Positions 34,138-37,680 of a stretch of 64,000 nucleotides of DNA are shown here, piece after piece (within the stretch, counting starts at the first letter, position 1; each line of letters starts with the position of its first letter). Both the position numbers and the translations under genes were made by a program. The notes beneath the pieces are model-generated. The model saw only the letters and a list, made by a program, of their open reading frames with translations. It searched no databases and had not been told where the DNA came from. Source of the stretch: Candidatus Phycosocius spiralis (GTDB lineage: Bacteria; Pseudomonadota; Alphaproteobacteria; Caulobacterales; Aquidulcibacteraceae); the NCBI RefSeq assembly GCF_030158815.1, contig NZ_BPFZ01000002.1, positions 62,001-126,000 on the forward strand, in the 5' to 3' direction.

Positions 34138-35111
34138 GCTACCCTCTTTATTTGCGTCAATGGCGGAACCCCAGACAGGCCAGTCACATGGCTTGGGAGC
34201 GCGGGCGCGCTTGTACGGATCGCAGCTCTAAGCTTCGCTGAGCGCGAGCGTGGGTTTTGCGCAATCTCCCGATCACTCGCCCGAACCACCTTTTTGTGGA
34301 TCAGGCTAAAGCTAGGGGCGGGACCGTTTTTTCTGGGGGTGTGGCGCGATCCGGTCACTTCCTTGCTGCGCTCATTAAAGAAGATCTTGACGACCCGATC
34401 TTCGAGTGAGTGAAAGGTAACCACCACCAAGCGCCCGCCTTCAGGCAGTTTTTCTTCCGCAGCAGTCAAAGCCATCTCCAATTCGCCAATCTCGTCGTTG
34501 ACATAGATGCGTAGCGCTTGAAACACGCGGGTGGCGGGGTGGATGTGATCCTTATGTTTATGGCCGATCACACGCGAAACCACGCCTGCTAATTCGGACG
34601 TGCGCAGATAAGGTGTAATTAGCCGGTCGGTAGCAATGGCGCGCGCAATGCGGCGGGCCTCGCGCTCCTCACCATAAAAATGAAACAGCCGACTAAGTTC
34701 TGCTTCACTGAGCTGTGCAATCACGTCGGCCGCACTTGGGCCATCGGTGCCCATGCGCATATCAAGGGGCCCGTCTTGCATGAATGAGAAACCGCGTTCA
34801 GCTTGATCGATCTGAAAAGACGACACGCCAATGTCGAGCACCACGGCGTCGAAAGGCCGACCTAAAGCTGCCAATTGCGAAAATTTTGTCTCAACCATCG
34901 TAAAACGATCTGGCATTTGCGCCGCCAAGGCCATACCGCGCGCAACGGCATCCTTATCGCGGTCGAGCCCAATGACTTGACATGGTGCTGCGGCTAGTAT
35001 CGCGTGCGTATAGCCCCCGCCACCAAAAGTACCATCCACAATGACTTGCCCGGCCCGTGGCGATAAAGCGTCCAGCACTTCTTGCATCATGACGGGCTGA
35101 TGACCACTCAT
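34134..35111 (-). CDS. rsmH: 16S rRNA (cytosine-1402-N4) methyltransferase RsmH
   Basis: A 325-residue SAM-dependent methyltransferase (MraW). Marks: HQPVMMQEVLDAL at the start, DGTFGGGGYTHAIL (SAM site), LDIGVSSFQIDQAERGFSF and VVTFHSLEDRVVK. Modifies the ribosomal P site. Stop-start overlaps couple it to mraZ upstream and ftsL downstream. Confidence 0.96.
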   Translation of the reverse strand: MSGHQPVMMQEVLDALSPRAGQVIVDGTFGGGGYTHAILAAAPCQVIGLDRDKDAVARGMALAAQMPDRFTMVETKFSQLAALGRPFDAVVLDIGVSSFQIDQAERGFSFMQDGPLDMRMGTDGPSAADVIAQLSEAELSRLFHFYGEEREARRIARAIATDRLITPYLRTSELAGVVSRVIGHKHKDHIHPATRVFQALRIYVNDEIGELEMALTAAEEKLPEGGRLVVVTFHSLEDRVVKIFFNERSKEVTGSRHTPRKNGPAPSFSLIHKKVVRASDREIAQNPRSRSAKLRAAIRTSAPALPSHVTGLSGVPPLTQIKRVA

Positions 35112-35590
35112 GGCGTATAGGCCTCGCGGACTTTTTTGCGCGCCATGGCAAAAATTCGCGCCTTGGTCTGGACGGTTTTATCGCGCGCCGCTTGGGCCAT
35201 GCTAATGGCCACTTCAGGACTGGTGATCCGAAAATAGGGCCCAAGCCCGATGAAATTCACGCGCTCACTAAGCGCTGCATGCGCCACAAAGCTCTCAGGC
35301 AAGACCATGCGGCCCGCACTGTCTAATGTCAATTTTCTCGAACCGCCCAGGATCGCCAAGGTCGCGGCCTCTGCCACATCGGGATCGTCTTGCGCTAATT
35401 CTTCGGCAGACTGCGACAGGGCCGCGATGAATGCATCATCCCCGCCCTCCAGCCAAGCGCCTTCCCCAGGCCAAACACGTACATGATCACTTGGCTCTGC
35501 CCCAATTTTAAGGCTGGAACGGAAGTCCGCAGGCAAGGTTACCCGCCTTTTGTCATCCAGTCCTGCATCATAGGTTGAAACAAAGCGCAT
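35108..35590 (-). CDS. mraZ: Transcriptional regulator MraZ
   Basis: A 160-residue protein with two AbrB-like MraZ repeats (DAGLDDKRRVTLPADFR and LDSAGRMVLPESF). MraZ rings bind TGGG repeats in their own promoter and repress the dcw operon. It is the first gene of the cluster, with GAGGG about 5 bases before the ATG. I did not find the usual regular TGGG direct-repeat array upstream. Confidence 0.94.
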   Translation of the reverse strand: MRFVSTYDAGLDDKRRVTLPADFRSSLKIGAEPSDHVRVWPGEGAWLEGGDDAFIAALSQSAEELAQDDPDVAEAATLAILGGSRKLTLDSAGRMVLPESFVAHAALSERVNFIGLGPYFRITSPEVAISMAQAARDKTVQTKARIFAMARKKVREAYTP

Positions 35591-35841: not shown

Positions 35842-35880
35842 TTATGCAACATGAAGGGCGCGCAATTGCTTGATTGCAGC
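35842..35880 (-). repeat. Left copy of a 39-bp direct repeat, remnant of a phosphatase 3' end
   Basis: 36 of 39 bases match 36549-36587. Read on the minus strand it encodes AAIKQLRALHVA and a stop, matching AAIKQLRALYVA at the end of the neighbouring phosphatase. Two of the three differences are synonymous. The 5' part of this copy is absent; a REP hairpin takes its place. Confidence 0.85.
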
Positions 35881-35895
35881 AATGCGCTCCGCGCC

Positions 35896-35923
35896 GTAGG
35901 GTGCATTCCGTAAGGAATGCACC
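35896..35923 (+). repeat. REP hairpin, left
   Basis: GTAG (35896-35899) followed by arms GGTGCATTCC and GGAATGCACC around GTAA. A 5' GTAG beside a hairpin is the classic layout of REPs recognised by RAYT transposases. Inverted relative to the right copy. Confidence 0.85.
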
Positions 35924-35966
35924 ATCCTAAACGACGGGCCAAGTTTATCGAGATCATCCATCGGCT

Positions 35967-36431
35967 TCATATATTCCTTCCATAAAAGCTTGAATACGGC
36001 CAATCTTCGATGGATTTTACCAGGCCATGGCGCACCGGGTTTGCGCGGATATACGCATAGTGATTTTCTAGATCGCGTTCGTCTCGAATTGCATGCTCCC
36101 AAAACCGCCGTTGCCAAAGGCCACGCTCACCTTTGCGTTGCCCTTTTGGAGCCTTAGCATGCGCCCCCATGGCGCGGGTGAAGTGTCGTTTGAGCAACGA
36201 CCAACGAAGCGCATAGTCATCGTCATCTGGCGGCAGCTTCCAAATACAGTGAATATGATCTGGTAAAACGACCCAAGCGGGGCTGGAAAACGGCCTGTGC
36301 GCCTTTGTGCACTGCCAAGCCATTTTAAGCTCCCCTATATGATCCACCAAAGTCGTGGCGCGCCGATCGGCAAGGCAAACCGTGAAGAAAAAGCACCCAC
36401 CTTCGATTTTGATCCGGCGATAGTTTGGCAT
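35967..36431 (-). CDS. REP-associated tyrosine transposase (RAYT, Y1/IS200-like)
   Basis: A 154-residue single-domain HUH nuclease. The HUH motif is LPDHIHCIW (HIH). The catalytic-tyrosine helix is NHYAYIRANPVRHGLV. The N-terminus NYRRIKIEGGCFFFTVCLAD and WPYSSFYG near the end are typical of RAYTs. Such enzymes bind and nick REP sequences beside the GTAG tetranucleotide and are usually domesticated single-copy genes. Key residues appear intact, so the protein may be active. Confidence 0.88.
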   Translation of the reverse strand: MPNYRRIKIEGGCFFFTVCLADRRATTLVDHIGELKMAWQCTKAHRPFSSPAWVVLPDHIHCIWKLPPDDDDYALRWSLLKRHFTRAMGAHAKAPKGQRKGERGLWQRRFWEHAIRDERDLENHYAYIRANPVRHGLVKSIEDWPYSSFYGRNI

Positions 36432-36498
36432 GGGTCGATATCATCATGAATTATGTCTTTGGTAAATGGTTACCTTTGGATGGTTCGGTCGTTAAATC

Positions 36499-36526
36499 GG
36501 TGCATTCCATAAGGAATGCACCCTAC
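36499..36526 (-). repeat. REP hairpin, right
   Basis: On the minus strand GTAG (36526-36523) precedes the same 10-bp arms around a TTAT loop. It ends 22 bases before the phosphatase stop. Confidence 0.85.
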
Positions 36527-36548
36527 GGCGCAGGGCGAGGTGCTGTGC

Positions 36549-36587
36549 TTATGCAACATAAAGGGCGCGCAACTGTTTGATTGCAGC
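36549..36587 (-). repeat. Right copy of the 39-bp direct repeat
   Basis: The last 12 codons and stop of the phosphatase gene, matched by 35842-35880 on the far side of the RAYT module. Confidence 0.85.
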
Positions 36588-37637
36588 GTCACTCAAACCA
36601 AAACGCTGCTTAACCAGACCGATTGGGCCGCCAAATTGTGTGTCCATTTGCGCTAAGGCCTTGCGCATAACCTCGGCATCGGACCCTAAAATGACCGTGG
36701 CAACTTCCGGCAGCAAGCGCGCGAACGGGCTGGTTTGGGCGGCCGTACCGGTTGGTGCACTGCCAGCCTGTTGGGCCAGATTCAAATAATAGGACACTGG
36801 CACATAGGTTTGGCTCAAAGCATAATCGGCAATAACCGTCTCCCGTCGGACGCCCAAAACAGACAGGATCAAGGCGCTGGCCACGCCTGTGCGATCCTTG
36901 CCAGCCGTACAATTGACCACCAGTGGGCCTTTGTTTTCCAGCATGCTGGCAAACATCTCTGTATATTGGGGTGCTAGCATCGTGGCGAAGTTCAGATAGA
37001 CCTCTGAAAATATGTTCACGGCTTCAGCGCGCGTTTTGGCCCGCAATAAGCTCGCGAGCGAGGATTGCATCTCATAATCATGCGCCAAGGTTTTGATCGC
37101 ATCGCTGGCCAGAAGCTGGCTGGGCTCACTGGTGCGCTCTTGCTGGCTGCGCAAGTCACAGATGATCGCAATGCCCAGTTGCGCCAAATACGAAATATCG
37201 CTGCGCGACAGATTGGACATAACGCCAGACCGGTAAAGCTTGCCCCATTTCACAGCCTGACCAGTTTGGGTTTGATACCCACCCAGATCGCGGAAATTGC
37301 GGCCGCATTGAAGGGGTAGCAAGCGTTCTGCGACCCGAACTTGGCGACCCCAGCCCGTGTCGATCAGGAAATAAGGCCGAGGGGTGGTTGGTGCTGCCAC
37401 CTCAGCTTGTCCGCCCCCCGCACCCTTGACCAAGGTGCGCATCAAAACAGCAGGCTTATCTGGGGCATCGGCGACCCGTAACGTGGCTTTCGCGGCCTTA
37501 TCCGACCAGTTTAGCCGAACTTTGCCAGCATCCAAGCGCACGGCTGTGGCTGTTATTGGGGTGGCAGCATCTGCCGCGACTGGCAGGCTAAGCGCACCTG
37601 CGCAGCCAGCACTGACGAGAAAGCTTCTACGATCCAT
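36549..37637 (-). CDS. Exported tyrosine-type phosphatase (CX5R)
   Basis: A 362-residue protein with a twin-arginine-like export signal (MDRRSFLVSAGCAGALSLPV). A roughly 90-residue N-terminal domain leads into a dual-specificity/tyrosine phosphatase domain starting at GRNFRDLGGYQT. The catalytic loop is NCTAGKDRTG (C-x5-R, Cys near 242). This is the Y_phosphatase3 type, which in bacteria includes lipid and phosphotyrosine phosphatases; the substrate is open. I chose the ATG 37637 over a TTG two codons earlier. It lies 43 bases after the TonB receptor, probably co-transcribed. Confidence 0.87.
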   Translation of the reverse strand: MDRRSFLVSAGCAGALSLPVAADAATPITATAVRLDAGKVRLNWSDKAAKATLRVADAPDKPAVLMRTLVKGAGGGQAEVAAPTTPRPYFLIDTGWGRQVRVAERLLPLQCGRNFRDLGGYQTQTGQAVKWGKLYRSGVMSNLSRSDISYLAQLGIAIICDLRSQQERTSEPSQLLASDAIKTLAHDYEMQSSLASLLRAKTRAEAVNIFSEVYLNFATMLAPQYTEMFASMLENKGPLVVNCTAGKDRTGVASALILSVLGVRRETVIADYALSQTYVPVSYYLNLAQQAGSAPTGTAAQTSPFARLLPEVATVILGSDAEVMRKALAQMDTQFGGPIGLVKQRFGLSDAAIKQLRALYVA

Positions 37638-37680
37638 GGCCAAATGCCTTTTTGAACAAGTGATGAGATATCAATACAAA

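Follow-up and report, generated by a model that had tools for sequence, protein, structure and literature searches.

How does a transposase module come to lie between two copies of the same gene end? The question is raised by a stretch of 64,000 nucleotides of DNA from Candidatus Phycosocius spiralis (contig NZ_BPFZ01000002.1, positions 62,001 to 126,000; hereafter the window), in which a RAYT gene (REP-associated tyrosine transposase) and two REP hairpins stand between a phosphatase gene and mraZ, and in which the last codons of the phosphatase gene recur on the far side of the module. Read along the minus strand, the order is phosphatase, 22 nt, REP, RAYT, REP, 15 nt, gene-end copy and mraZ flank, with the following features in window coordinates:

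36549..37643, minus strand: Y_phosphatase3-family gene (PF13350, Pfam 1.4e-61), an intact open frame whose 3' end is the right 39-bp copy
36549..36587, minus strand: right 39-bp repeat copy, the last 12 codons of the phosphatase gene plus the stop TAA
36527..36548, no strand: 22-nt spacer from the phosphatase stop to the GTAG of the right REP, read from the sequence
36499..36526, minus strand: right REP, GTAG and a hairpin with a 10-bp stem (pattern match with 0 mismatches; DNA fold z -3.75)
35967..36431, minus strand: RAYT, 154 aa (NF047646, 8.1e-55, full length)
35896..35923, plus strand: left REP, GTAG and a hairpin with a 10-bp stem (pattern match with 0 mismatches; DNA fold z -3.68)
35878..35895, plus strand: outer arm of the left REP, starting AGCAATGCGC, its AGC coinciding with the three terminal bases of the left copy
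35842..35880, minus strand: left 39-bp repeat copy, a remnant of the phosphatase gene end matching the right copy at 36 of 39 positions
35108..35590, minus strand: mraZ, downstream neighbour and synteny marker for the empty site (Pfam MraZ, 1.2e-11)

The two copies (35842-35880 and 36549-36587) are 36/39 identical, align without gaps and show no extension beyond 39 bp. They comprise the last 13 phosphatase codons including the stop, and each adjoins one REP edge. Of the three differences, one replaces Tyr by His and the remaining two are synonymous; the right copy, which is the intact gene end, encodes AAIKQLRALYVA followed by the stop, and the left copy encodes AAIKQLRALHVA followed by the stop. 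Within the window the 39-bp pattern has exactly two occurrences and it never arose in 100 shuffles, the chance expectation being zero, so that a phosphatase end on both sides of the module, as described in the earlier note, is a real feature of the locus. At the left junction the repeat copy and the REP arm overlap by the 3 bp AGC, which is likewise there in two of the four other REP copies of the genome; the overlap is compatible with a microhomology join, but is no proof of one. The left copy is also in frame with a 91-aa open frame (35842-36117, minus strand) that runs through the REP and the 3' region of the RAYT, possibly by chance.

The RAYT (35967-36431, minus strand) reaches 184.7 bits against a cut-off of 80 and covers positions 1-146 of NF047646, and its match to Pfam Y1_Tnp (0.0034) lies below the Pfam cut-off. 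HIH and NHxxYI motifs can be read in its sequence, and an active nuclease that cleaves at the foot of the REP is a prediction. The two REPs are inverted around the gene with GTAG outermost in each, and both fold better than shuffles; together with the family match this bears out the architecture that had been recognised from the letters of the window. When the genome was searched for the REP, as the earlier note had advised, few copies were recovered altogether, namely those at C1, C3, C11 and C17 and a weaker match at C15. They start AGCAATGCGC at C11 and C17, and read ATCAATGCGC at C3 and ATCATTGCGC at C1. The C3 copy belongs to a MITE-like relic (G000:C3:34255-34535, L003/L004) that retains both module ends and has lost most of the RAYT interior, and the C1 copy to a relic consisting of the left REP and the RAYT end (G000:C1:308917-309089, L002). 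Flanking repeats longer than 11 bp were found at neither the C1 nor the C3 relic.

The gene order in congeners indicates what the locus looks like without the module. A phosphatase orthologue stands beside mraZ in four of eight congeners, as a single copy with ~57-60 % amino acid identity and ~140 bp between the two genes, and the left 39-bp copy of the window lies between the module and mraZ, at the place where these four have their phosphatase end. Neither the RAYT nor the exact REP core is present in the examined mraZ locus (~4 kb) of any of the eight, in which mraZ has 77-79 % amino acid identity. The comparison with relatives thus yields an empty site at the level of gene order only, orthologues of ~57-60 % amino acid identity giving a poor DNA alignment of the phosphatase end. 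Judged from this gene order, the module is an insertion between phosphatase and mraZ. The same four congeners each have one further phosphatase match, a 34-35 % paralogue elsewhere. In the genome of the window, the search for a second full copy of the phosphatase, which the earlier note had likewise proposed, returned a 32 % paralogue at C3 as the sole other match and no such copy. The other four congeners (L130, L131, L135, L137) are without phosphatase in the ~1 kb upstream of mraZ, which implies that the gene itself is variable across the genus.

The RAYT was found in 1 of 60 genomes of the family at E<=1e-20 (the window's own), in 10 of 387 genomes of a class sample at E<=1e-25 and in 69 of 397 genomes of a phylum sample at E<=1e-30. 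The module is thus patchily distributed and was probably acquired.

A survey of other RAYT modules covered 280 loci (80 + 120 + 80), with a RAYT frame in 193 of the first 200 and in all 80 of the last; redundancy between the genome sets was partly removed by dropping loci with already-used coordinates. Modules with at least 150 bp on each side were considered testable, which gave 277 including the window (191 + 86, several per locus in places). At least 8 of these 277 were judged to be framed by duplicates, ~20-250 bp long, of a gene end or of target sequence next to a stop, a count by judgement rather than by automatic scoring that may miss diverged cases; as the window was the starting case, the independent figure is at least 7/276. 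The other 269 modules have no such duplication by the same judgement, among the matches listed. Automatic direct-repeat hits from self-comparison were frequent, but mostly REP/BIME arrays, which were removed by masking and by eye. RAYTs also cluster within a few kb in places, with five matches in L374 (G1105:C4) and three in L413 (G849:C1).

The duplicated targets differ from case to case. In L093 the repeat spans 207 bp, or 69 codons of a permease end, with 17 synonymous and 2 nonsynonymous differences, and the permease stop is followed by the GTAG of a REP after 12 nt. L373 has a gene end of 18 codons, of which one copy stops with TGA and its counterpart with TAA, with 6 synonymous and 0 nonsynonymous differences, and L404 a 99-bp repeat that takes in flank and the final 24 codons, counting the stop, of a gene on the opposite strand, with 2 synonymous differences and 1 nonsynonymous. 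A gene start of 13 codons is duplicated in L386 (4 synonymous, 3 nonsynonymous); no open frame of at least 110 aa continues it, and the gene looks broken on the far side. The L180 repeat is noncoding, ~20-26 bp directly after the stop of an exbD-like gene, and has a third copy 13 kb away beside an identical 481-bp exbD-like end, so that a local gene duplication may explain part of it. Two cases are less clean. In L094 the repeated gene start, presumably of an RNA-methyltransferase-like gene, continues into a second RAYT fragment. In L409 a regulator-like gene has its end repeated, ~90-180 bp from the REPs and gapped at 72 % identity. Among related observations, a stretch of 481 bp ending past an exbD-like stop is 100 % identical in L321 and L322 (G787:C1:2108228 and 2121036), 13 kb apart, where one copy enters a RAYT module and the other does not, and the L093 remnant, like that of the window, lies inside an open frame (182 aa), again possibly by chance.

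In the window, L093, L373, L386, L404 and L180 both copies lie at most 22 nt from the REP GTAG. Repeat length across these six cases ranges from ~20 to 210 bp, and the neighbouring gene end is kept in full in five of them, L386 being the exception. As a control, 363 intervals away from RAYTs were taken from the first 191 loci only and inspected less closely; 10 of them score >=14 and 2 score >=25. Scores >=14 were reached by 22/191 and 15/86 modules, much of the excess over the control being REPs, and by 0.25/191 mismatched flank pairs. Paired flanks are enriched in repeats, but whether genuine copies of gene ends are enriched as well depends on the sorting by eye. The strongest control hit (L193) resembles a coding sequence that is repeated.

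The substitutions between the copies provide insight into their history. Six ungapped coding pairs (the window, L093, L373, L404, L386 and L094; L409 was left out) were compared with a null model in which the copies are identical at the start and the remnant decays neutrally, with 2000 simulations. In the pool, 32 codons differ synonymously and 8 nonsynonymously, where the model expects 24.6 nonsynonymous; 8 or fewer occurred in none of the simulations, of which the lowest gave 12, and the pooled test retains P=0.0015 when L093 is removed. Taken singly, L093 has 2 nonsynonymous differences against 12.0 expected and L373 has 0 against 3.2 (P 0.0075), L386 is borderline (P 0.07), and L404 and L094 are uninformative. 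We interpret the pooled deficit of nonsynonymous changes as an indication that most of the divergence between the copies arose in working genes, prior to their joining, and in the informative cases they look, from their codons, like two alleles of one gene that have been united and not like a duplication made at insertion. The claim that the left copy of the window evolved as coding sequence accordingly fares differently by scale: on the window alone, with three differences only and P=0.50, it does not follow and mechanisms are not discriminated, whereas the pool, above all L093 and L373, renders it credible. A classical target-site duplication, of fixed length, identical at birth and decaying neutrally, disagrees both with lengths of ~20-210 bp and with the pooled codon test.

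L093 can be compared with relatives. Its module DNA matches L306 (87 %) and L304 (85 %), and the flank from ~630 bp beyond the remnant has its best match, 94 % over 341 bp, in L305, which is without the L093-type module; the first ~550 bp beyond the remnant match L305 just in short, partly REP-like pieces. Compared with the intact copy and with five relatives, the remnant has 7 private changes that are synonymous and 3 that are nonsynonymous. L306, which is outside the survey, has a similar RAYT and beyond it a permease remnant made up of the final 18 codons, different from that of L093 at the same locus, and L304 has a similar RAYT, yet no permease remnant in the examined flank. The distance from permease stop to RAYT start is 340 bp in L304, 596 bp in L306 and 200 bp in L093, and a donor with the 200-bp spacing was seen in neither L304 nor L306. 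No second full permease end was found in the flanks of L302-L306 (~1.5 kb past the stop; 0.8 kb in L303). The content of this intergenic spot downstream of the permease gene varies: L304 and L306 have an L093-like RAYT, of which L303 shows the start, L305 has a distantly related RAYT-like gene, and L302 has other sequence; the spot may be a hotspot for REP-associated cargo.

The reading that we prefer, and to which we assign an even chance, is that a homologous crossover on the side of the gene brought the module in, while its other end was joined without homology at a REP edge. Donor DNA from a related lineage would have contained a phosphatase end of its own and, after it, the REP-RAYT-REP module. 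A homologous crossover within the resident phosphatase gene would have joined one side, and on the other the outer edge of the left REP would have been fused non-homologously with the resident gene, some codons short of the stop. The end of the resident gene would then stay as a remnant, the left 39 bp beside the old flank, and the donor-type end, now the right copy, would complete the working gene. The free end at the REP edge could be supplied by hairpin processing or by RAYT cleavage beside the REP; RAYT-type enzymes cut near the REP in vitro, which would give a reason for a free end there. We infer which of the two copies in the window is foreign, the homologous crossover and the REP edge as the break point. 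Several results favour the reading: both copies stand at REP edges, congeners have the empty site, a few other RAYT modules share the layout, the pooled divergence between copies resembles the divergence between working genes, and in L093 module and farther flank match different relatives. It is opposed by the 269 of 277 modules judged to be without duplication, among the matches listed, by the differing permease-to-RAYT spacing in L304 and L306, by the merely piecewise match of the nearer L093 flank to L305, and by the C1 and C3 relics with no flanking repeat above 11 bp. Moreover, if donor DNA ended at random, donor flank would frequently remain outside the REP, and copies at most 22 nt away rather favour a unit that ends at the REPs. 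Gene-end copies around a few related modules suggest that recombination between related strains is at times how such modules arrive. A hybrid route, which we regard as unlikely, would have cleavage at the REP edges free the module together with a short neighbouring piece of gene end, which then guides homology-based entry elsewhere. If so, the module would home to the same gene end in other lineages, usually without breaking it, and leave long, variable, allele-like duplications behind.

The closeness of both copies to the GTAG in the six cases (at most 22 nt), as if the unit ended at the REPs, is likewise expected if the RAYT itself inserts the unit from REP to REP and, through staggered nicks followed by gap repair, duplicates a long target stretch of variable length. 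Five of the six neighbouring genes keeping their full end (the L386 gene looks broken) and the cleavage near the REP by TnpA-REP enzymes in vitro (PMC8266576, in its accessible text) agree with this, and later allelic exchange of the intact copy would mask neutral decay, which makes it a rival to recombination. It is, however, unlikely: repeat length varies from ~20 to 210 bp in the six cases, the expected neutral decay is missing from the pooled copies, so that extra gene-replacement events would be needed, and IS200/IS605 relatives are reported to be without larger target duplications (excerpted text of PMC2817692). Divergence as coding sequence, and a remnant beginning right at the REP, would be accounted for as well if tandem phosphatase genes once flanked the module and a deletion at the REP edge left just the last 39 bp of the second. 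GTAG ends often give flanking ORFs a TAG stop, according to the available part of PMC3733652, which makes a REP after a stop ordinary, and L306 has a different permease-end remnant at the locus of L093. We nevertheless consider the tandem origin improbable. The deletion of a second phosphatase copy, raised in the earlier note, gains no support from relatives, as the four orthologue-bearing congeners have one copy beside mraZ and a 34-35 % paralogue; a tandem gene was found neither in these four nor in the genome of the window, and a second full permease end not in the examined L302-L306 flanks.

Tyrosine-recombinase islands restore gene ends, and the restored gene end and the direct repeats at both module ends could accordingly reflect an attachment-site-like core of 39 bp carried by the module. 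This is highly improbable, as the 0.7-kb unit has no long open frame fit for an integrase besides the RAYT, and repeat lengths and target genes vary by case with no fixed core sequence. For chance similarity or an assembly artefact we found nothing in favour, and their probability is negligible: chance predicts zero occurrences and is refuted by the shuffles, and the copies differ from each other, so that a doubled read is unlikely. By contrast, the alternatives of capture or of an unusual insertion mechanism, both raised in the earlier note, are supported by the empty site in congeners and by recurrence at a few RAYT modules.

If recombination between lineages is the route, its products bear on how RAYTs, which are patchily distributed, come to travel: gene-end duplications with allele-like divergence would be the scar of arrival. 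Such scars would make the travel of RAYT modules testable from sequence, and they point to inter-lineage recombination that breaks at REP edges. Gene-end duplications at RAYT modules were not found reported in the open-licence literature, a scope that excludes most subscription journals and that was covered in part.

Inverted GTAG REPs around a RAYT are the standard REPtron (accessible sections of PMC2817692, PMC6006769 and PMC3733652), and the module shares with REPtrons (RAYT, or TnpA-REP) the family match, the two inverted GTAG REPs and further genomic REPs. It differs in the long duplication around it, of which the published descriptions make no mention in the portions available, and the corresponding portions of PMC6006769 and PMC8266576 state that there is no evidence for mobility of RAYT genes. 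With IS200/IS605 transposition it has the enzyme superfamily in common (HuH, single tyrosine), although larger target duplications are not made there (PMC2817692, as excerpted). Restriction-modification genes are described as inserting with long, variable target duplications (Nobusato et al. 2000, as cited in the available text of PMC3031569). The window resembles these in having a gene between long, variable direct repeats of the target, with a target repeat at both ends and an empty site in all four orthologue-bearing congeners, but its cargo is a RAYT module, it ends at REP hairpins, and the pooled copies are allele-like. Homology-facilitated illegitimate recombination, finally, is an established process, with reports from three competent species as well as E. 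coli (PMC3240628, in part), and was proposed for displaced genes in Vibrio effector-immunity loci (PMC5361080, likewise in part). The likeness consists in one homologous side, one non-homologous join and older gene parts pushed downstream; the difference lies in the join, which here would fall at a REP edge, and in the extension to RAYT modules, which we propose from sequence.
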